Shown here one piece after another: positions 8,089 through 20,913 of a stretch of 37,084 bases of DNA. A program made the translations under genes and the position numbers. Under the pieces are notes generated by a model. It saw nothing but the letters and a program-made list of their open reading frames with translations, was not told the origin of the DNA and searched no databases. Numbering within the stretch: position 1 is the first letter of the stretch; each line of letters opens with the position of its first letter. Origin of the DNA: Mesoaciditoga lauensis cd-1655R = DSM 25116 (GTDB lineage Bacteria; Thermotogota; Thermotogae; Mesoaciditogales; Mesoaciditogaceae); the NCBI RefSeq assembly GCF_000745455.1, contig NZ_KN050690.1, positions 1-37,084 of the forward strand. The letters run 5' to 3'.

Positions 8089-9132
8089 TTACAAGATGTG
8101 TTCTAATATCTTTTCTGCGATGATTTTAGCGGGAGAAGATGAAGGGGAAATTTTTTTCAGCTGTTCTCTCATGAAAGAATTCACTTGAGGTTGGAGGGCT
8201 TTTTGCACCAATTCTTGAAATTGTGAAATACTCGTTTTTTCTTCATCAACCATAAAGGCGGCGGAAATGCTTTCCAAATACTCTGCATTCTTCATTTGAT
8301 GGGAGTTCAACGCCCCTTTCCAGGGTACCAAAATGGATGGCGTTTTAGAAGCGATAAGCTCTGCCAGTGTGCTTGCCCCAGCCCTACAAATGACCAAATT
8401 CACATTTCTCATGAAATACGCCATATCTTGAATGTAATCGAAATGTGTTACGTTTGGCGCTTCCACCTTTTTTTTACCTGTGTGAATGAATTTAACTTCC
8501 CTCAATTTCGTAGAAAGACTTTTTGCGATTTCATCCAAAAAGTCCGATCCTTCACTTCCACCAAATACCAAAACGGTTTTATCTCCGAAACTCTTCTTAA
8601 ATTCTTCATCTCTCGGTAGGAAAAAACTGTCTCTAACTGGCGTACCGCACACGTAAGGATTGTTTAAATCCTTCTTAGATTGTTCAAATGCACAAAAGGA
8701 GATCTCGGTGTAAGGTGAAAGCTTTTTGTTGGCTATTCCCACTTCAAAGTTAGATTCATGAAGAAAAATTGGAATTTTCAAGATATGGGCAGCATAACCC
8801 ACTATGCCTCCCACGTAGCCACCCGTCGTGAAGACGAAATCGGGATGATTTTTTTTCAACACGACAAGAGCTTTAAGGAGCGCTGTGGAGTTGAAATACA
8901 AATAAGAGATACGAGATTTGTCGCTGCCACTGCTTTTCAACGCGATATGTTCAAAGGGAAAATTTTCATTGTATATGTTCTTTTCAGCGCCTCTACCAGT
9001 TCCTACAAATAAAGCACGCAACGGATGAATTTTCTCGATTTCTTTCGCAACGGCAAGGGCAGGATATATGTGTCCGCCGGTTACGCCGGCGGCAAAAATT
9101 CCTCTAACCCTCTCTTTCTGCTGAGTATGCAA
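8089..9132 (-). CDS. murG: MurG, lipid II synthase (GlcNAc transferase)
   Basis: MurG transfers GlcNAc from UDP-GlcNAc to lipid I at the inner face of the membrane, giving lipid II. It is a GT-B fold protein of 347 aa. The N-terminal GVTGGHIYPALAVA is the membrane-associated G loop, GGYVGG is the second, GGSEGS begins the C-terminal domain, and RAGASTLAEL plus NSHQMKNA are the donor site. It starts at TTG, 8 bp after GGGGGTGAT, and overlaps ftsW by 29 bp. It is the last gene of the mur operon; murC and murB are absent here. Confidence 0.95.
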   Translation of the reverse strand: MHTQQKERVRGIFAAGVTGGHIYPALAVAKEIEKIHPLRALFVGTGRGAEKNIYNENFPFEHIALKSSGSDKSRISYLYFNSTALLKALVVLKKNHPDFVFTTGGYVGGIVGYAAHILKIPIFLHESNFEVGIANKKLSPYTEISFCAFEQSKKDLNNPYVCGTPVRDSFFLPRDEEFKKSFGDKTVLVFGGSEGSDFLDEIAKSLSTKLREVKFIHTGKKKVEAPNVTHFDYIQDMAYFMRNVNLVICRAGASTLAELIASKTPSILVPWKGALNSHQMKNAEYLESISAAFMVDEEKTSISQFQELVQKALQPQVNSFMREQLKKISPSSSPAKIIAEKILEHIL

Positions 9133-10201
9133 TGTTTATGATCACCCCCATTCCTCCCATCAAGGAGACTATAGAGCTTCCTCCGTAGCTTACAAAGGGT
9201 AAAGTTACACCCGTGACCGGTAATACCCCAAGCGAAACTCCAGCATTCAAAAGAATTTGAAAAGCCACCAGAAGTCCAAAACCGGTTATGTACGTTCTCG
9301 CAAACATATCGTCTTCAATTTTCAACGCGACATGAATTATCTCCCTTATCAACAGATAGTAGAGTAACAACAGCAAGGATATTCCAAGCAATCCGAATTC
9401 CTCTCCAAAGGTAGCGAATATGAAATCGCTGAATTGAACCGGCATGTAGAATTTGTAAACTCCTCCAGCCGGCCCATTGCCTATTATTCCCCCATGGCTT
9501 ATAGCGGAAAGGGCCATTGAAAGCTGGTAATTTGTGTGCCCCGTGGTTAAAAGGCTTAAAAAGGAGGAAAGTCTCTCTTTTTGGTACGAATGTAAAAATC
9601 CCCCAACGTAAGCTCCCCATACCAAAAGACCACCGAGACCAAATATAGATAGAATATGATACAGTCTTGCCCCCATCACGTAAAGGATAAAGAGCGTTAA
9701 CACGATAAGAAGGGTGGTTGTACTCAAATCCGGCTCTAAAAAGACAAGAAGGTATATGGGGCTCAATTTCACCAAAGGTTCAAACACTCCGCCAACAAAA
9801 GTTCTCATGCGTCCTTCTTCTTGACGAGATACGTAAGAAGAGAGGTATATTATCAAGAATATCTTTGCAAATTCAGAGCTTTGAAAAGAGAAAGGGCCAA
9901 GTGATATCCATCTGTGTGATCCCATAACTCCATGAGAAAAGAAGACAGAGAGGAGAGCCAAAATGGTGAGAACGTAATAGATGCCAGTGTAAGATTCATG
10001 TTTTTTGTAGTTGAAAAAAGATGTAAAAATCATCAGCAAAGTGCCGATAAGGATGGCCGATAACTGGCGTTTGAAATAATAGTCAGGCGATGGAAATGGA
10101 TATTTGTAAGCCGCTATATAACTGGCACTGTACAGGATTATGAGTCCTGTTGCCATTATCGTTGAAAGAAGTATTAAGATCTTAGATATGTCTTTCTCCA
10201 T
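9104..10201 (-). CDS. ftsW: SEDS peptidoglycan glycosyltransferase, FtsW
   Basis: This is a polytopic membrane protein (365 aa, about ten helices) of the SEDS family, which polymerises glycan strands from lipid II together with a class B PBP. Seen motifs: ILYSAS in helix 1, KRQL, SHRWISLGPFSFQSSEFAKI, FLEPDLSTT, and the end LPFVSYGGSSIVSLMGG. Its place between murD and murG argues for the divisional FtsW rather than RodA, though sequence alone does not settle this. It overlaps murD by 20 bp and murG by 29 bp. Confidence 0.92.
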   Translation of the reverse strand: MEKDISKILILLSTIMATGLIILYSASYIAAYKYPFPSPDYYFKRQLSAILIGTLLMIFTSFFNYKKHESYTGIYYVLTILALLSVFFSHGVMGSHRWISLGPFSFQSSEFAKIFLIIYLSSYVSRQEEGRMRTFVGGVFEPLVKLSPIYLLVFLEPDLSTTTLLIVLTLFILYVMGARLYHILSIFGLGGLLVWGAYVGGFLHSYQKERLSSFLSLLTTGHTNYQLSMALSAISHGGIIGNGPAGGVYKFYMPVQFSDFIFATFGEEFGLLGISLLLLLYYLLIREIIHVALKIEDDMFARTYITGFGLLVAFQILLNAGVSLGVLPVTGVTLPFVSYGGSSIVSLMGGMGVIINIAYSAEREG

Positions 10202-11462
10202 TTAAAACGATCCTTTTAAACGCTTCTCCGCGTTCTTTATAATTTTTGAACATGTCAAAAGAAGTTGCCGCGGGGCTAAAAAGCACCACATCGTTTTCTC
10301 TGGCGATTTTTCGTGCCATTTGCACAGCTTCTTGAAGATCATTTGCTTTTTCGTGAGGGAATCCATTTAGCACGCTTTCCATCATAGGAACCATTTCTCC
10401 CATGATTATAGCAAACTTTGCCCTTTTTCTTATTTCGTCCGCCAAATAGGAATAATCTTTCTCTTTTGGCCTTCCTCCTATTATGACTATGGAAGATTTA
10501 AAATTTTTCAAAGCTGCTATCGTGGATTCCGATGTTGTGGATTTAGAATCGTTTATGTAAACCACACCGTTAGATTCCACAACGAACTCCTGCCTGTGAG
10601 CAAGAGGAGAAAAACTATTTATTCCTTCTTCTATCGTTTCAGCTGGCACTTTCAGCAAAGCTGCCATTGTTGCCGCAAAAGCTGCATTGTAAACGTTATG
10701 AAGTCCTTGAAGCCTGGATGAAACAGTGTATTCCCTTCCATCCAACCAAAAGCTCTTGTTTTCCTCATCTATGAAAACATCGCCAAAATCCTTCGAAATT
10801 ACAATTCCGTCGCTGGCAGGAATGAATTTGCTATCGGCGTTGTACAAAAACACGTCCGATGTGGATAATTTCATCTTTGCCGTTACGTATTCATCCATAT
10901 CCTTATGCCAATCTAAATGATTTGGCGAAATGTTCAAAATTGCCCCTATATTCGGATGAAATTCCTCTATTCCCATCAATTGAAAGCTACTCACTTCAAA
11001 GATACAAATGGGAGAACCATCATATTTTATCGATGCAACTCCAATGTTTCCTCCTGTAAAATGCGGAGCCTTTGCACAAGTGAGAATGTGATCGAGTAGA
11101 GAAACTGTCGTTGTTTTCCCATTTGAACCTGTTATGGCTACAACTTGCGGATTAGCAGGATTTACGGCGTACCGCCATGAAAATTCCATTTCTCCCATCA
11201 CTTGTGCACCGTTTGATCTGGCCATCTTTAATATATCGCTTTCCGGCCTAACAGAGGGGCTATAAACGACAACATCCGCCTGGGAAGCTCTGGAAGTGTT
11301 TTTGCCTTCTTCATATTCCACGTTGTAACGTGAAAGTTCTTCTTTATCCTCCTCTGAGATTTGCTTGGCTTCGGAGACGAATACCTCTCCAAGTCTTTTT
11401 TTAGCGATAAACCTCATGATCTCTTTGGTACTTACACCGTATCCTATCAACGAAAAACGCAT
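10182..11462 (-). CDS. murD: UDP-MurNAc-L-Ala--D-Glu ligase
   Basis: MurD is the cytoplasmic Mur ligase that adds D-Glu to UDP-MurNAc-L-Ala. The 426-aa protein has a Rossmann-like UDP domain, the ATP loop TGSNGKTTT (residues 111-119), FEVSSFQL, the NISPNHLDWH motif, the hinge INDSKSTTSES, and SPAATSFDMFKNYKERG near the end, which is typical of MurD. GGGGATG precedes the ATG. It overlaps mraY by 16 bp. Confidence 0.95.
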   Translation of the reverse strand: MRFSLIGYGVSTKEIMRFIAKKRLGEVFVSEAKQISEEDKEELSRYNVEYEEGKNTSRASQADVVVYSPSVRPESDILKMARSNGAQVMGEMEFSWRYAVNPANPQVVAITGSNGKTTTVSLLDHILTCAKAPHFTGGNIGVASIKYDGSPICIFEVSSFQLMGIEEFHPNIGAILNISPNHLDWHKDMDEYVTAKMKLSTSDVFLYNADSKFIPASDGIVISKDFGDVFIDEENKSFWLDGREYTVSSRLQGLHNVYNAAFAATMAALLKVPAETIEEGINSFSPLAHRQEFVVESNGVVYINDSKSTTSESTIAALKNFKSSIVIIGGRPKEKDYSYLADEIRKRAKFAIIMGEMVPMMESVLNGFPHEKANDLQEAVQMARKIARENDVVLFSPAATSFDMFKNYKERGEAFKRIVLNGERHI

Positions 11463-12391
11463 AGCATCCCCACACTTCCACTCATTATCGCAAGTTCTAC
11501 CGCCAAGAATGACAGCGTAACGCGGTTTTCGCTCTGCCCTTTCATTTCGTAATGATGATGAATTGGAGCCATTCTAAACACTCTTCTATGGAAGTATCTC
11601 AAACTTATTATTTGAATAGTATCACATACCAATTCTATAACAAAAATAGAGAAAAGAAGCATCATCCAAAATTCGTATCCGTACAACATTCCCAAAGCCC
11701 CTATGTATCCACCGAGGGCAAGAGAACCAACATCTCCCATGAATATCTTCGCCGGCTTCACGTTGAAAAACAAAAACGCCAAAACAGCGCTCATACTTGT
11801 AAGAGTGGTTGTAAGGGGAAAGCCCTTGTAAAGTGAAAAAACGGCAAGCCCCAGCGCACCTATAAAATAAACCCCTCCCGCAAGTCCATCCAAGCCATCC
11901 GTTATATTTGAAGAATTCGACATGCCAACCAAGAAGGTGATGGTGAATATCGGATAAAACCATCCCATTTCCAATTTTCCTAAAAACGGGATTACGGTGT
12001 AGGTATGAGGAAAAATATTTTGGGAAACCAGATACAAAAATACCGCAGTGGCAATTTGCAAAATCAACTTTTGGTAGCTTTTCAACCCTTCTGATTTTGA
12101 CTTCAAGATTTTCATAACGCCATCGATATAGCCTATAACGAAAAACGAGAATGTTGACAGCACGAGAAAAGCGTTTTCGATGCTCTTGTTAAATACCAGC
12201 GATACCACCATGAACACGCTTACAAAGACGAGTCCCGCCATCGTTGGCGTACCTTCTTTGTAGTTGTGCATCTGAGGCCCGTCACTTCTTACGTGCTGGC
12301 CTATCTTTCTCTTCTTCTGCCACGCGATAAAAAGATGAATTAAAACGAGAGTTAAGACAAAAGATAAAGACGTTTCGTATATCCACTTCAT
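11447..12391 (-). CDS. mraY: phospho-MurNAc-pentapeptide transferase
   Basis: MraY makes lipid I by moving phospho-MurNAc-pentapeptide from UDP to undecaprenyl phosphate. It is an integral membrane enzyme (314 aa, about ten helices) with GPQMHNYKEGTPTMAGL, NITDGLDGLAGG, FMGDVGSLALGG and the terminal APIHHHYEMKG. It starts with ATG overlapping the murF stop as ATGA. The order murF-mraY-murD is the common one. Confidence 0.96.
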   Translation of the reverse strand: MKWIYETSLSFVLTLVLIHLFIAWQKKRKIGQHVRSDGPQMHNYKEGTPTMAGLVFVSVFMVVSLVFNKSIENAFLVLSTFSFFVIGYIDGVMKILKSKSEGLKSYQKLILQIATAVFLYLVSQNIFPHTYTVIPFLGKLEMGWFYPIFTITFLVGMSNSSNITDGLDGLAGGVYFIGALGLAVFSLYKGFPLTTTLTSMSAVLAFLFFNVKPAKIFMGDVGSLALGGYIGALGMLYGYEFWMMLLFSIFVIELVCDTIQIISLRYFHRRVFRMAPIHHHYEMKGQSENRVTLSFLAVELAIMSGSVGMLCVFR

Positions 12392-13594
12392 AAAGCTCCC
12401 TCAATTTCTTCAACGATCTTTCCAAGCGTGTATATTCTTGAACCTTTTACCAAAATGATATCTCCATCCTTGACGACATTGTTCAATCTTTCAAGAGAAT
12501 AACTTTCCCCAAATGGATAAAAAAGTCTCCCTACTGTGAAAATAGCTTTGGGGGAAAATTCATCTTTTATGTGAAGAAGGCGTTTCGAAAGCCCATCCAC
12601 TTCTATCTCTTCCATGGGTGCCAACACCCAGATGACGTTTTTACCTTTCAATTTGAAAGCCACCTGAGCCGCGTTAATCAAAGATTCCAAGCTTGCATTG
12701 TACGTATCGTCTATTATGATGTTTTTGTTCAGATATTTGATGTTCATTCTACCTTTTAAAAAAGAAAAATTTCTGAGATCGTTCAGATCCCAGCTCATTC
12801 CCAACTCATCCATAAGCGTAAGGGCAAATTCGAGATCTTTTATTTGGCCTTCCCCCCAGATACCGTTCAAAGCGTAGTCTTCGCCACTAACTTTTACAAT
12901 CGTTTTCAACTCTTTGTACTTAAATGAATCGACATGTTTTCTAAGCACTCTTCCTTTTTCCATCAAGACTTTTTTCAAATTATCGTTTCCGTCGTAAAGG
13001 ACGAATTTCTCCGTCTGTTTGACGATAGAAGATTTTTCTTTCAGTGGATCTATGTACATCGAATGAGAACTTCCAACGAACGTGATGATCGATATATGAG
13101 GCTTGAAGATCGTCGACAGCTGCTCAACATCTCCTGGGAACCTAGCACCAATTTCAAAAATGGCATATGAAGGATTTTTTTGAGGATCGTTCAAAATGGA
13201 AAGTGATATTCCAACATCCGTGTTGAAGTTCCCAACGCTTTTGCAAACCGCTCCGTGTTTTTCAAGAAGATGAGAAATGATTTCTTTTGTCGTTGTTTTT
13301 CCGCAAGAACCCGTAACGGCTATTCTCAAAGAATCCTTTATTTTTTCAAAGGCAAGGGTTGTTAAAGCTCTTATGGTACTTTGAACTTTTACGTAAGGGG
13401 AAAAAGGGATCTCATGTTCGCTAACCGCATAACCGTTCTTTTCATATACTTCTTCTATAAATTCATGACCGTCTCTTTTAGCTCCTTTTAAAGCAAAAAA
13501 CAGAGAACCTTTGGAACATTCTTTTGAGTTGGAACAAAAGTTTGAAACGTCCACATCTTTTCCCACAAGCTTTCCTCCGGTTATCTTTGCCACC

Positions 13595-13608
<14 letters not shown>
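12388..13608 (-). CDS. murF: UDP-MurNAc-tripeptide--D-Ala-D-Ala ligase
   Basis: MurF completes the UDP-MurNAc-pentapeptide. The 406-aa protein has an N-terminal UDP domain (SNSKECSKGSLFFALKGAKRDGHEF), the ATP loop TGSCGKTTTKE, the MurF-type SVGNFNTDVGISLSIL, the EIGARFPGD motif, and IDDTYNASLESL in the hinge. It is somewhat shorter than E. coli MurF (452 aa). It starts at TTG within the end of murE (14-bp overlap), with GGGAAAG upstream. Confidence 0.94.
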
Positions 13609-16359
<2,751 letters not shown>

Positions 16360-16379
16360 TCAAAACCATTCCTTTAGGA

Positions 16380-16388
16380 ATTATATCA
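16380..16388 (-). promoter_or_regulatory. extended -10 promoter for eno-mur operon
   Basis: On the - strand TGATATAAT gives a perfect extended -10 immediately after the rnfB stop codon, about 40 bp before the eno start. No clear -35 is visible. It would separate eno-mur transcription from the rnf operon upstream. A small ATTCC/GGAAT hairpin lies just downstream. Confidence 0.5.
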
Positions 16389-16667
16389 CGATTTTTCTTC
16401 CATGATTTTCTTTATCTTCTCAGCCACACCACTTCTCTTACCGGGTACACATTTATCGTAAGGGGCACCTTTTTCCACTATTGCATGCGCATATGCGGAA
16501 CATCCAGGATAACCACACATACCACAATTCGCACCTGGCAGAACCTCTATGATTTTTTCGACGCGAGGGTCTTCTTTTACTTCAAATTTCTTTGCCAGGT
16601 ACGCAAGACCAAATCCAGTTACAAATCCTATTCCACCTAAAAGTAGGATAGAATACACGAATACCAT
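16386..16667 (-). CDS. rnfB: Rnf complex subunit B, short form
   Basis: RnfB normally receives electrons from ferredoxin. The 93-aa product has an N-terminal membrane helix (about 3-24) and the first Fe-S domain, PGANCGMCGYPGCSAYA...KCVPG, with Cys48, Cys51, Cys56 and Cys73. It then stops after about 20 residues. The additional ferredoxin-type 4Fe-4S domains that follow in typical RnfB are missing. Only 44 bp separate it from eno and no remnant is visible. The start ATG at 16667 was chosen for AAAGGTG at 8-bp spacing; a GTG at 16676 overlaps the rnfA stop. Confidence 0.88.
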   Translation of the reverse strand: MVFVYSILLLGGIGFVTGFGLAYLAKKFEVKEDPRVEKIIEVLPGANCGMCGYPGCSAYAHAIVEKGAPYDKCVPGKRSGVAEKIKKIMEEKS

Positions 16668-16672
16668 TTTCA

Positions 16673-17257
16673 TCACACCTTTATCATGCCGGTAAATGCC
16701 ATGAAACTCATTGAAAGTATGAAAGCCGTTATGAAAGCGGCCGGCGTTCCGTCAAACGCCGCTGGCAATTCTTCAACATCCAACTTCACTCTCAACGATG
16801 AGAAGAGTATCAACGCCATGGAATATCCAAGAGATGAACCCACCGAGTTGAAAATAGTCTCCATGAGTGTGTAATTATGTTGAACGTTTATAAGGGCCAA
16901 CCCCAAAATAGCGCAATTGGTTGTAATAAGCGGAAGATATATTCCAAGCGCACTGTAGAGGGCAGGATTTGTTTTTTTGATGAATATCTCTATGATCTGC
17001 ACCAAAGCAGCGATCACCAGGATGAATATCAATATTTGAAGGAATTCAACGTGCCACATGATCAAAAGCAAGTTCAAAAACCATGTAACAATGCTGGCCA
17101 CCACCATAACGAATATGACACCCATCGACATGCCAACAGCGGTATCCATGCTTTTCGAAACTCCAAAGAATGGACATAATCCCAAAAACCTTGAGAGCAA
17201 GAAATTGTTTACCAGCATTGCCGCAAAGAGGATCGCGAAGAGTTTAGCTGCTTCCAT
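16673..17257 (-). CDS. rnfA: Rnf complex subunit A
   Basis: RnfA is an integral membrane subunit of the ion-pumping ferredoxin:NAD oxidoreductase. The 194-aa protein has six helices and the conserved NNFLLSRFLGLCPFFGVSK and TTNCAILGLAL motifs, whose Cys residues hold a 2Fe-2S cluster in the membrane shared with RnfE. GGGGTGAT precedes the ATG. It lies 5 bp after rnfE. It is homologous to RnfE and NqrE. Confidence 0.96.
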   Translation of the reverse strand: MEAAKLFAILFAAMLVNNFLLSRFLGLCPFFGVSKSMDTAVGMSMGVIFVMVVASIVTWFLNLLLIMWHVEFLQILIFILVIAALVQIIEIFIKKTNPALYSALGIYLPLITTNCAILGLALINVQHNYTLMETIFNSVGSSLGYSMALILFSSLRVKLDVEELPAAFDGTPAAFITAFILSMSFMAFTGMIKV

Positions 17258-17262
17258 TCAGA

Positions 17263-17898
17263 TCACCCCTTACTCTTTTTAAGTGCCTTTTTTCTCGTAT
17301 TTCCTATATGTTTAAACAAAGCCATGTACAATCCTATAACGAGAAAGGCACCTGGTGGCAGCATCATAACGAACATGCCGTACGTTTTTGGCCATATTCT
17401 TATTCCAAATATCGTTCCCACTGACAAAAGTTCTCTTGTTATTCCCAAAAGTAGAATGGCTCCTATGAAGCCAAATCCCATTCCAACTCCATCTAAAAAA
17501 GATTTCCATATGCCATTCTTCGATGCAAAAGCCTCTGCACGTCCCATTATTATACAGTTAACGACTATAAGTGGGATGTAGAGACCCAAATTTGTCCAGA
17601 GTTGATAAGTATAGCCGTGCATCAAAAGATTTACGATGGTAACAAAAGAAGCAATTACCGAAATATAAGCCGGTATTCTCACTTCGTTAGGTATCAGTTT
17701 TCTCAAAGCTGAGATGAATATGTTGGAAAGGATAAGGACACCCATGGTGGCCAATCCCATTCCCAACGCGTTTTCAGCATTTGTTGACGTTGCTAACGTT
17801 GGGCAAAGCCCCAACACTTGGGAAAAAGTTGGATTTTGTCTTACAAAGCCGGCTGTAAAAGCCGAAAGAGAGGAAGAATCATTCGTTTCACTCATCAT
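17263..17898 (-). CDS. rnfE: Rnf complex subunit E
   Basis: RnfE is the partner membrane subunit of RnfA, inserted in inverted topology. The 211-aa protein has six helices and QNPTFSQVLGLCPTLATSTNAENALGMG and VVNCIIMGRAEAFASK, including the two cluster Cys. The N-terminus is preceded by GGAGG, and the start overlaps the rnfG stop by 4 bp. Confidence 0.96.
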   Translation of the reverse strand: MMSETNDSSSLSAFTAGFVRQNPTFSQVLGLCPTLATSTNAENALGMGLATMGVLILSNIFISALRKLIPNEVRIPAYISVIASFVTIVNLLMHGYTYQLWTNLGLYIPLIVVNCIIMGRAEAFASKNGIWKSFLDGVGMGFGFIGAILLLGITRELLSVGTIFGIRIWPKTYGMFVMMLPPGAFLVIGLYMALFKHIGNTRKKALKKSKG

Positions 17899-18611
17899 CT
17901 CGCCTCCTTTTCAAGAAAGGCATACATCGCATTCAACGTACTGACAACTGCACGAGGCGTTATCGTTGCTCCGGTCATCACATCGCTCGTCACAACCACA
18001 CCTTTCGACTTAAAATAGTTCAATTTATCTTTATAGTCAGGTGGAAGAGGATAAAGGTTGGCGTCTTTGTTAACCTTCACACCGTTTTCAAACCCGCTGT
18101 TTGGAATGGAATAAAACCTCTGTCTTACCTGCGGTTCGTTTATCTTAGCGCCTAGTCCCGGTGTTTCGTTAGAATAGTCTATCACTCTTATGGCATTCTC
18201 ATAAAAGCCATCTTTTTTCTTTTCAAACGCCGCAACCGTCACCACTCTACCGCCGAAGCCTATTCCATATCCAAGCAAAACGTAAACAGGTTTTCCGTTC
18301 TTTGACTTGAAAAGGTAAGCGGGGGACAAAACGTATCCTTTTACCTTTTGATCACTGTATAATATTCCTGAAGGATCAGATTTCCATATTTTTGCTTTCA
18401 ATTGAGACAAGGTTTTCGGAATCTCGTTTTCATCTATCAAGAGCTTGCCCGTATTCGGGTCGGTTAAAACCGCCTTTATGGCCGTCAATTTCGCTTCCAA
18501 ATCCGACTTCGCTATGGGCTGCTTTGTTACAAGATAAACGGCTGAAAGGATTACAGCAATGGCCACCATTAAAACTGTTAAAAGTAATGCTGTTTTCAAA
18601 TATTTACCCAT
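17895..18611 (-). CDS. rnfG: Rnf complex subunit G, flavoprotein
   Basis: RnfG carries covalently bound FMN on the outer face of the membrane. The 238-aa protein has one N-terminal helix (about 7-28) and an FMN-binding domain with GYGIGFGGRVVTV, ETPGLGAKI and, near the end, MTGATITPRAV, whose second Thr is the expected FMN attachment residue (S/TGAT motif). GAGGTGAG precedes the ATG, and it overlaps rnfD by 8 bp. Confidence 0.95.
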   Translation of the reverse strand: MGKYLKTALLLTVLMVAIAVILSAVYLVTKQPIAKSDLEAKLTAIKAVLTDPNTGKLLIDENEIPKTLSQLKAKIWKSDPSGILYSDQKVKGYVLSPAYLFKSKNGKPVYVLLGYGIGFGGRVVTVAAFEKKKDGFYENAIRVIDYSNETPGLGAKINEPQVRQRFYSIPNSGFENGVKVNKDANLYPLPPDYKDKLNYFKSKGVVVTSDVMTGATITPRAVVSTLNAMYAFLEKEAR

Positions 18612-19593
18612 TTTTTCTCACCTCCCCAAAAACTTTGGGTCGGCTAATTTGATCGATAAAGGGTACCAGGGAGTTCATGAGAAGTATTGCAAAATTCACC
18701 CCTTCTGGGTAAGATCCGACATACCGAATCAAAACTGTTATAACTCCACAACCCAGTCCAAATATCCATTTTCCCTTCGATGTGATTGGACTCGTCACGG
18801 GATCAGTAGCCATGAACAGGGCACCCAACATGACTCCGCCTATCAAAATAGCGGTAGTTGGATCCGGGTAAGCACTTGGGTTGATGAACCAATAGATGGC
18901 TGAAATTCCAAAAGTGGTTCCTATGTACGCGATCGGTATTTCATAGGAAACGATGCCTTTCCACCACAAATACAAAAAGCCGGCTATCAAAGCCAGAGCG
19001 CTCATTTCACCCGCAGAACCAGGAATATTTCCAAAAAAAGCGTTTTGCATAAGGTGAGGGAAAACAGAATTTGCTTCCGCCATGCCGTGCATTTTTATAA
19101 CTCCAAGAGGCGTAGCCGTTGTTTGAAGGCTGAATGCTGATTGGGAAAAATGAAACCAATTCACCTTTGGCCAGGCAGTCATGGCAGCTGGAAAAGAAAT
19201 GTACATGAATATCCTGCCAACCAGGGCCGGATTAAAGGGATTGCTACCTATGCCTCCGAAAACTTCCTTTCCTATCATTATAGCCACGAATACGCCTATT
19301 CCCATCATCCACCAGGAAATTCCTGCCGGCACGTTCATTGCAAGCAACAATCCCGTTACCGCCGCGGAACCGTCTGGCAGAAAATCCTTTTTCTTTCTCA
19401 TATATCTCATCGTGAAGAATTCCAACGCTTCTGCCAAAATCATCGAACCTACTTCGATAAGAAGCATGTACCAGCCCCACATCAAAACGGCCAATATGCC
19501 GGCCGGTGCTAAGGCTATAAGAACGTCTATCATTATCTTTCTTGTGGAAATGTTATCGTGAATGTGAGGCGCAGGCCCTAAAGTAAATTTCAT
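18604..19593 (-). CDS. rnfD: Rnf complex subunit D
   Basis: RnfD is a membrane flavoprotein homologous to NqrB. The 329-aa protein has about nine helices. It starts MKFTLGPAPHIHDNISTRKIM, has GKEVFGGIGSNPFNPALVGR, and TTATPLGVIK with the Thr that should bind FMN through phosphoester linkage. FMATDPVTSP and the terminal region are conserved. ATG at 19593 is preferred over GTG at 19599 because of GGGAGG spacing. Confidence 0.95.
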   Translation of the reverse strand: MKFTLGPAPHIHDNISTRKIMIDVLIALAPAGILAVLMWGWYMLLIEVGSMILAEALEFFTMRYMRKKKDFLPDGSAAVTGLLLAMNVPAGISWWMMGIGVFVAIMIGKEVFGGIGSNPFNPALVGRIFMYISFPAAMTAWPKVNWFHFSQSAFSLQTTATPLGVIKMHGMAEANSVFPHLMQNAFFGNIPGSAGEMSALALIAGFLYLWWKGIVSYEIPIAYIGTTFGISAIYWFINPSAYPDPTTAILIGGVMLGALFMATDPVTSPITSKGKWIFGLGCGVITVLIRYVGSYPEGVNFAILLMNSLVPFIDQISRPKVFGEVRKNG

Positions 19594-19595
19594 CT

Positions 19596-20897
19596 TCACC
19601 GCCTCCCCAAAGCTCTGACAACCGTCTTTGCCGTTTTAAACGCTTTTACATGATCTATATTCGATGGACATACGTAAGCACAAGAACCACATTCTATGCA
19701 ATCCATAAGATGATGTTCTGCCATATCGTTGAATTTCTTCTTTTTGAACAGTTTGTAGAGCAAGTAAGGCTCTAAATTCATGGGGCAGGCTCTGACACAT
19801 CTTCCGCATTTTATGCAGTTCATTTCAGTTCCTTTTTTCACAATCTCGATTGGTAATATCGTTATGCCAGATGTCCCCTTCATGATGCCGATTTCTGGAT
19901 CGTTTATGGCTATTCCCATCATTGGCCCACCAAGTATGAGCCTGGAGTCTTCATCCTTAACTCCTACCAGTTTTAACAATTCTGAGATAGGTGTTCCTAT
20001 TCTCACAAAGAAATTCTGAGGTTTTTCAACTCCTTCACCTGTTACGCTTACCCCTCTTTCTATAAGTGGTTCGCCATATTCCAACGCTCTGTACATGGCA
20101 CGTGCTGTGGAAACGTTCTGCACCACCACTCCAACATCCATGGGTAATCCACCAGCGGGTACCTTTCTATGCGTTATTGCGTATATCAGGTGTTTTTCAG
20201 AACCTTGAGGGTATTTTGTTGGAAGTTTGACAACGTTAATGTTATGTTTTGAAGCAACCTCTTTGATACTTCTTATGGCTTTGGGCTTATTTTCTTCTAT
20301 TCCTATGTAAACGTTGTCGACTTGCAATGCTTTTGAAAAAGCCAAAACCCCTTTTACTATTTCTTCCGCGTATTCTTGCATCATTCTATCGTCTATGGTG
20401 AGATATGGTTCGCATTCGGCTCCGTTGATTATCAAAGTATCAACTTTCTTTGTGGGAGAAAGCTTGACATGGGTAGGAAATGTTGCACCACCCATTCCAA
20501 CCAAACCAGCCTCCTGGGCACGTTTTACTATCTCTTCTTTTGTGAATTGATCGTATGGCTTTACGGGATCAAGCTTTTCCCACACATCCTTGCCAGTTCT
20601 TTCTATAACTATTACATCTGCCGGTCTGGATGTAACGGGATGTTTCTTCTTTACAATTTCCTTCACTTTGCCCGTTATTGGTGAGTGCAAAGGAACGGAC
20701 ACGAATCCATCAGCTTGAGCTATCATCTGACCTGTTTTTACTTCCTGGCCAGCTTCAACTATGATTTTTGGAGGTTTTCCCAGATTTTGGCCAACAAACA
20801 GATAAACGATTTCTGGAAGTGGAAGGATTTTTATTGGAGAATCCTTACCGATCTTTTTAGTTGGGGGATGCACTCCTCCTTTGAAGGTCCATACCTG
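19596..20897 (-). CDS. rnfC: Rnf complex subunit C, NADH-binding
   Basis: RnfC is the peripheral subunit that holds FMN and two 4Fe-4S clusters and exchanges electrons with NAD. The protein starts with FKGGVHPPTKK, has a GxGGATFPTHVK nucleotide loop (GMGGATFPTHVKL), and two cluster motifs CIKCGRCVRACP and CIECGSCAYVCP. TTG at 20897 gives the usual short N-terminus (433 aa) and sits 9 bp after AAGGAG; an ATG at 20909 abuts that site. It is first of the six rnf genes and follows pgi closely. Confidence 0.95.
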   Translation of the reverse strand, partial: QVWTFKGGVHPPTKKIGKDSPIKILPLPEIVYLFVGQNLGKPPKIIVEAGQEVKTGQMIAQADGFVSVPLHSPITGKVKEIVKKKHPVTSRPADVIVIERTGKDVWEKLDPVKPYDQFTKEEIVKRAQEAGLVGMGGATFPTHVKLSPTKKVDTLIINGAECEPYLTIDDRMMQEYAEEIVKGVLAFSKALQVDNVYIGIEENKPKAIRSIKEVASKHNINVVKLPTKYPQGSEKHLIYAITHRKVPAGGLPMDVGVVVQNVSTARAMYRALEYGEPLIERGVSVTGEGVEKPQNFFVRIGTPISELLKLVGVKDEDSRLILGGPMMGIAINDPEIGIMKGTSGITILPIEIVKKGTEMNCIKCGRCVRACPMNLEPYLLYKLFKKKKFNDMAEHHLMDCIECGSCAYVCPSNIDHVKAFKTAKTVVRALGRR

Positions 20898-20913
20898 CAA
20901 GTAGATCATCTCC

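Follow-up and report, generated by a model that had tools for sequence, protein, structure and literature searches.

The rnf operon and its short rnfB

The window, by which we mean the whole stretch of 37,084 nucleotides analyzed here, comes from contig NZ_KN050690.1 of Mesoaciditoga lauensis cd-1655R (assembly GCF_000745455.1). Its minus strand carries, in this order, rnfC, rnfD, rnfG, rnfE, rnfA and rnfB, followed by eno. The rnfCDGEAB set is complete, and all six subunits score above the cut-offs of their own TIGRFAM families. The features are:

19596..20909, minus strand, rnfC (TIGR01945, 558.4 bits, cut-off 245.95)
18604..19599, minus strand, rnfD (TIGR01946, 341.8 bits, cut-off 207.05)
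17895..18611, minus strand, rnfG (TIGR01947, 113.4 bits, cut-off 102)
17263..17898, minus strand, rnfE (TIGR01948, 250.6 bits, cut-off 213.4)
16673..17257, minus strand, rnfA (TIGR01943, 242.8 bits, cut-off 229.3), overlapping the start of rnfB
16386..16676, minus strand, rnfB in a short form of 96 amino acids, start GTG at 16676, stop at 16386
16587..16673, minus strand, N-terminal helix of RnfB (residues 2-30), membrane anchor according to an AlphaFold2 model and the alignment to solved RnfB chains
16398..16568, minus strand, FdI domain of RnfB (residues 37-93), predicted to hold one [4Fe-4S] cluster (C51, C54, C59, C76)
16342..16385, gap of 44 bp between the stop of rnfB and the start of eno, too short for a lost domain
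15055..16341, minus strand, eno, the next gene downstream of rnfB

The product of rnfC contains a 4Fe-4S dicluster domain (Fer4_7 at residues 364-418), and rnfC is the only start-to-stop frame of at least 50 amino acids in the window with a CxxCxxCxxxC ferredoxin motif. In two related loci eno also follows a short rnfB, directly in L080 and after approximately 600 bp in L081. Past eno, the minus strand carries at 8089-15262 what we take to be a cluster like murG, ftsW, murD, mraY, murF and murE.

The rnfB frame can begin at GTG 16676, which overlaps the stop of rnfA, at ATG 16673 or at ATG 16667, giving a protein of 96, 95 or 93 amino acids. A preliminary description of this DNA had set the gene at 16386-16667; the stop was placed correctly, and the start chosen was the third in frame, with GTG 16676 and ATG 16673 upstream of it. 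That description had seen in the protein a membrane helix and the first iron-sulfur domain of RnfB, ending about 20 residues after Cys73, which agrees with what was found: Pfam recognizes a single domain, PF04060 (residues 46-78, E = 8.4e-15, DNA 16443-16541), behind the helix of residues 2-30, and the C-terminus lies 20 residues past the last cluster cysteine, which is Cys73 in the 93-residue and Cys76 in the 96-residue numbering. C51, C54, C59 and C76 are invariant across 21 aligned short RnfBs, that of Mesoaciditoga included. Pfam finds no second PF04060 in the frame and no Fer4-type match in the 96-residue protein, as the description had said of the ferredoxin-like domains. It was right too that the DNA before eno holds no remnant of them, the gap being exactly 44 bp; a remnant further downstream was considered and rejected, since no frame of the window besides rnfC carries the motif. 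Two other PF04060 matches in the genome were rejected as second RnfBs, one at the end of a presumably permease-like frame (C3:89668) and one inside a frame that we take to be MobB-like (C2:62675).

The AlphaFold2 model of the protein, built with 21 sequences, has a mean pLDDT of 90.2 and helices at residues 2-30, 37-45, 59-69 and 84-93; the first of these is hydrophobic, and its role as anchor is read from the model and from the alignment to solved RnfB chains. The best fold match found by Foldseek among solved structures is the RnfB of Acetobacterium woodii (9eri_B, E = 8e-4). When the short RnfBs are taken together as a profile, its whole length can be aligned to three solved chains, at residues 4-89 in 7zc6_B, 5-90 in 9eri_B and 2-87 in 8ahx_B. 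The N-terminal approximately 87 residues of classical RnfBs (A. woodii 9eri; Clostridium tetanomorphum 7zc6; 8ahx) match the short family and contain the same shuttle domain, but the classical chains, of 174-333 residues, continue with ferredoxin modules and the RnfB of the window does not. The next Foldseek matches, weak at E = 0.1-0.2, are the N-terminal FeS domains of corrinoid/iron-sulfur proteins (4c1n, 2ycl, 4djd), which are related to the short RnfB by sequence profile as well. These belong to a different enzyme, and the match lacks an anchor of the RnfB type.

Against the RnfB family TIGR01944 the protein scores 79.9 bits (cut-off 68.7), with only positions 5-89 of 190 aligned. Along with this score it has the N-terminal helix, the four-cysteine FdI domain and the rnf neighbors of an RnfB; the C-terminal ferredoxin module or modules are missing. 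We regard such modules as common in RnfB rather than defining, because the published RnfB of Thermotoga maritima is also devoid of them. Like the protein of the window, that RnfB consists of a helix and a single FdI and is encoded last in rnfCDGEAB (PMC7414866, PMC9588780). An RnfB of this build is thus already in print, and the one from Mesoaciditoga is another member.

Short RnfB in the Thermotogota

The preliminary description had left it to a comparison of RnfB lengths across the phylum whether the short form is typical, and it is. In a search of 103 Thermotogota genomes, with counts made by eye from the result tables, the N-terminal part of RnfB was found in 99, and 83 of these 99 have a short RnfB in frames of 91-136 amino acids. 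The other 16 all belong to one family, f6, and have frames of 231-240 amino acids with a second FdI. A ferredoxin domain would not fit into frames of these lengths. A short RnfB with one FdI is the rule in the Thermotogota. The locus L062, which we take to be that of T. maritima, gives the same Pfam result as the RnfB of the window, a single FdI; its RnfB has 100 amino acids compared with 96, it comes from another family, and it is in the window that eno follows. Among the best 80 of 559 candidates in a scan of contigs from named genomes, the RnfB closest to that of the window comes from Athalassotoga saccharophila (66% identity).

The phylum search found no N-terminal part of RnfB in G004, G012, G030 and G053. 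G004 is a member of the window's own family; its genome is 96% complete, and neither rnfB nor rnfD was found in it.

Among the rnfB genes of 40 fetched loci, a single one has a ferredoxin motif. It lies in the second rnf operon (L066, on G102:C122) of genome G102, which encodes a classical RnfB of 268 amino acids besides an rnfCDGEA operon and a lone short rnfB. The genome is a draft, 82% complete and in 320 contigs, and in a tree of the Rnf core subunits L066 is placed with other phyla; it may have been transferred or be a contaminant. Besides rnfD of the operon, many Thermotogota genomes have another sequence that matches RnfD more weakly (query positions approximately 11-321, approximately 180-230 bits), for example at G067:C1:306600-307466.

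rnfB is not always part of the operon. Without L066, the Thermotogota loci L047-L086 number 39, and in 10 of them (L052, L053, L054, L060, L061, L065, L067, L076, L082 and L083) the short rnfB is not beside rnfA and stands amid unrelated genes. In these 10 genomes rnfD is found elsewhere. Fervidobacterium and Thermosipho are probably among the genera with such an unlinked rnfB. The partner loci are L087-L098; including L097 and L098, 12 operons without rnfB were inspected and all 12 end at rnfA. The stretches of 12-13 kb around them contain neither an FdI motif nor, besides that in rnfC, a ferredoxin motif. Annotators should be warned that an rnfCDGEA operon seemingly devoid of rnfB occurs in several families of the Thermotogota, the short rnfB sitting elsewhere.

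The double-FdI RnfB of the Kosmotogaceae

In all 16 genomes of family f6, which we take as the Kosmotogaceae, the rnfB frame matches PF04060 twice; in L049 and L050 Pfam itself reports two stretches. Ten of the sequences were read (L047-L051, L099-L102 and L107). They are 230-236 amino acids long, the second FdI follows 113-116 residues after the first, and the two copies are 36-51% identical over 45 ungapped positions. No CxxCxxCxxxC motif is present in any of the ten and, by eye, no second membrane helix. A model of the protein from Kosmotoga pacifica has a mean pLDDT of 85.5. Helix, first FdI, phylum and operon are those of the short RnfBs; only the second copy of FdI is extra.

In the core tree the ten rows form one clade (SH-aLRT 100) with family f7 as sister (f6 + f7, 99), and each of the two FdI copies is followed by a tail that, by eye, is of the same kind as that in the short RnfBs of f7. 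Judged by these sequences, the simplest reading is that a short RnfB was duplicated internally once, probably in the ancestor of the Kosmotogaceae. The second copy is more positively charged than the first in eight of the ten sequences, equal in one and less positive in one, the rows being related to each other; we take the more positive second copy as a hint only.

Short RnfB outside the Thermotogota and its origin

The scan of contigs from named genomes gave 559 confirmed candidates, the best 80 of which were followed up; it is no census. Nine of these 80 loci belong to Thermotogota (eight short, one double-FdI). Of the remaining 71 loci, 67 encode an RnfB with one or more ferredoxin motifs behind FdI, one RnfB (L165) runs off its contig, and three are short, namely L118 from the Anaeroplasmataceae, L123 from the Clostridiales and L146 from the Brevinematales. 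In 23 of 31 genomes of the Anaeroplasmataceae PF04060 was found, always in frames of 106-129 amino acids; in the other eight none was found. In the Brevinematales 11 of 13 genomes have PF04060 in frames of 99-146 amino acids, the exceptions being G144, with a classical RnfB of 295 amino acids, and G145, where the only match lies in a frame of 758 amino acids. The collection of plasmids gave 22 records, in which the best full-length match was 47% identical. Viral copies of RnfB were looked for as well; none of 60 pattern matches was confirmed.

The gene order differs between the groups. In the Anaeroplasmataceae (L118, L200-L203) rnfA is followed by one small gene and then by the short rnfB; in the Brevinematales (L187-L192, L204) the short rnfB comes after rnfA either directly or past one small gene, and in L193/L194, L196/L197 and L206/L195 it is unlinked. 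Adjoining the short rnfB in the Anaeroplasmataceae and some Brevinematales is a gene for a protein of 65-82 amino acids with several cysteines and, by eye, a hydrophobic N-terminal stretch; where rnfA is in the stretch, this gene sits between rnfA and rnfB. Its positions are:

L118:6773-6997, L200:8559-8753, L201:2083-2331, L202:5279-5506, L203:5371-5598, small cysteine protein, Anaeroplasmataceae
L192:7363-7563, L204:2611-2811, L205:2467-2667, small cysteine protein, Brevinematales

Five of the eight proteins were run against Pfam, and no family scored over its cut-off. Our guess is a maturation factor like NqrM. Between rnfC and rnfD, two Brevinematales loci (L187:6459-7978 and L190:2191-3683) have two extra frames, one of them ATPase-like by eye; in L188 and L189 these are absent.

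Trees were calculated from the core subunits. The 80-row tree was drawn from L047-L182, leaving out five duplicate or broken loci, 15 loci removed by hand from groups of similar ones, and those with incomplete RnfC, RnfD, RnfE or RnfA; L165, whose contig ends inside rnfB, was kept as a row without group. The 63-row tree (RnfC, RnfD, RnfE and RnfA; 1142 columns) has the Thermotogota thinned to 17 rows, and five of its rows are without RnfC. The Rnf core of the Thermotogota, L062 included, is one clade (SH-aLRT 100 with 47 rows; 100/100 with the 17 rows of the 63-row tree). In the latter tree the Anaeroplasmataceae also form a clade (100/100), that of the Brevinematales is weak (70/81), and L123 is placed among Clostridia. 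Mapped on this unrooted tree, the presence of a ferredoxin part in RnfB requires four changes, and the well-supported branches alone force four.

The simplest reading of the unrooted tree is that the ferredoxin part of RnfB was lost in parallel. The alternative, that the short form is ancestral and that ferredoxin modules were gained on several later occasions, would suit the same four changes, the root of the core tree not being fixed; but RnfBs with ferredoxin modules occur in all parts of the tree, on every side of the short groups, and we consider an ancestral short form unlikely.

How electrons could enter a short RnfB

Kuhns et al. (2020) gave the RnfB of T. maritima a mass of 10.56 kDa and a single predicted cluster, and noted that the length of RnfB varies strikingly among organisms and that the number of clusters is to be established (PMC7414866). 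The purified complex was active with ferredoxin from Clostridium pasteurianum and transported Na+ with ferredoxin as donor (PMC7414866). Vitt et al. (2022) proposed that FdI is the shuttle to RnfAE (PMC9588780), and FdI, which in A. woodii carries cluster B8, is described as mobile and as linking the ferredoxin modules to the [2Fe-2S] cluster of RnfA/E (PMC9588780, PMC11889175, PMC12174285). In A. woodii the B8 domain inserts between RnfA and RnfE; variants without the B8 ligands had lost four mol of iron and showed no ferredoxin-dependent NAD+ reduction, and their strains did not grow (PMC11889175). Ferredoxin is thought to dock in A. woodii near B1-B2, far from B8 (PMC11889175). It is these clusters, B1 and B2, the presumed docking site, that are missing from the short RnfB.

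Very probably, then, the gene of the window encodes a complete and working RnfB with a single FdI, in which soluble ferredoxin reduces the mobile FdI directly and FdI reduces the [2Fe-2S] cluster of RnfA/E. The helix would anchor the protein beside the membrane subunits; soluble reduced ferredoxin, the polyferredoxin part being gone, would dock on FdI itself; reduced FdI would swing to RnfA/E and give its electron to the [2Fe-2S] cluster between the two; and from there, via RnfG and RnfD, the electron would reach RnfC and then NAD+, a flow that would drive the export of Na+. For the Mesoaciditoga complex we infer the direct docking, the internal path and the coupling ion. Docking on FdI itself is without structural precedent in the papers cited here. 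One small frame of the genome (L186) is ferredoxin-like and has a single CxxCxxCxxxC motif.

The charge of FdI lends partial support to this proposal. Over 57 residues the mean net charge is +1.9 in short RnfBs (n = 36, 35 of them Thermotogota that form one clade, and L118) versus −3.4 in ferredoxin-bearing ones (n = 31), and a positive FdI is as expected for the docking of an acidic ferredoxin. Per 100 residues the charge shift in the Thermotogota is 9.1 for FdI versus 1.4 for RnfC. Many Thermotogota of this set are thermophiles. The charge of FdI had to be given up as a sign of direct docking in general: it holds in the Thermotogota but fails in the other short groups, with means of −1.4 in the Anaeroplasmataceae (five sequences), −1.8 in the Brevinematales (11) and +1 in the Clostridiales (one). 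A shortening of the RnfC tail along with RnfB was also considered and is not clear-cut: past the last cysteine motif the median lengths in the two groups are 25 and 24 residues, though tails longer than 27 residues occur in 7 of 31 RnfCs of the ferredoxin type and in 0 of the 49 others.

The preliminary description had allowed two routes into the complex, direct entry or a separate ferredoxin, and that choice of routes holds. On the second, a dedicated (multi-)ferredoxin encoded elsewhere would occupy the site of the RnfB C-terminus and feed FdI. Candidates are not lacking: at E ≤ 0.01 Fer4_7 matches the genome 24 times, small frames such as L185 (98 amino acids, two motifs) and L184 (124 amino acids, one motif) being among these matches, and where rnfB itself is unlinked, as in many relatives, the gene of another subunit could be so too. 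However, the search that the description had called for revealed, besides rnfC, no frame with a ferredoxin motif near rnf, neither in the window nor in 12 of 12 stretches around rnfCDGEA, and L185 adjoins two ATPase-like frames with ferredoxin motifs rather than rnf. Moreover, a ferredoxin from a clostridium suffices for the Rnf complex of T. maritima to work (PMC7414866), although more than six proteins were present when it was first prepared. Because that complex accepts a foreign soluble ferredoxin, we prefer direct entry; a dedicated extra subunit seems to us improbable.

Very improbable is that the short RnfB receives its electrons no longer from free ferredoxin but by direct contact from another enzyme, either pyruvate:ferredoxin oxidoreductase or a hydrogenase. 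The genome does contain genes (L183) that, by their sequence, we presume to encode subunits of a 2-oxoacid oxidoreductase, but the T. maritima complex is active with free ferredoxin from C. pasteurianum (PMC7414866). Finally, that rnfB was merely cut short at 16386 by a sequencing or assembly error, as a 65-contig draft might suggest, can be dismissed, since the alignment (query 4-96) with an rnfB of 91% identity from an independent genome of the same genus (G005) extends through the final residue, the match lies in frames of 94-135 amino acids in 9 of the 10 genomes of the family, that of Mesoaciditoga among them, 83 of the 99 genomes of the phylum with an RnfB have a short frame as well, and the gap to eno is too small for the missing domains.

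Comparison with known systems

Electrons from ferredoxin enter an ancient Na+ pump at RnfB, where long ferredoxin chains are seen in recent structures. The lineages without such a chain, in at least one of which the enzyme is known to work, indicate the minimum needed and offer a simple system for studying the step from ferredoxin to the shuttle. On balance we lean toward a wider view, in which the ferredoxin-accepting part of RnfB would be a dispensable antenna and the bare shuttle a second, recurrent design of Rnf, reached at least four times (in the Thermotogota, the Anaeroplasmataceae, most of the Brevinematales searched and at least one member of the Clostridiales). The Kosmotogaceae would have rebuilt the entrance by duplication of the shuttle, one FdI perhaps docking ferredoxin and passing the electron on to the other. 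The recurrent loss and the duplication of FdI are somewhat more interesting than the protein of the window itself.

In the open-licence literature consulted we found in print neither a double-FdI RnfB nor an unlinked rnfB nor a short RnfB outside the Thermotogota, and we saw nothing on a short RnfB in PMC4014512. By description only, the short RnfB may be likened to NqrF, which also has a single helix and a small flexible iron-sulfur domain (PMC12174285); unlike RnfB, NqrF carries a [2Fe-2S] cluster and an FAD/NADH module.
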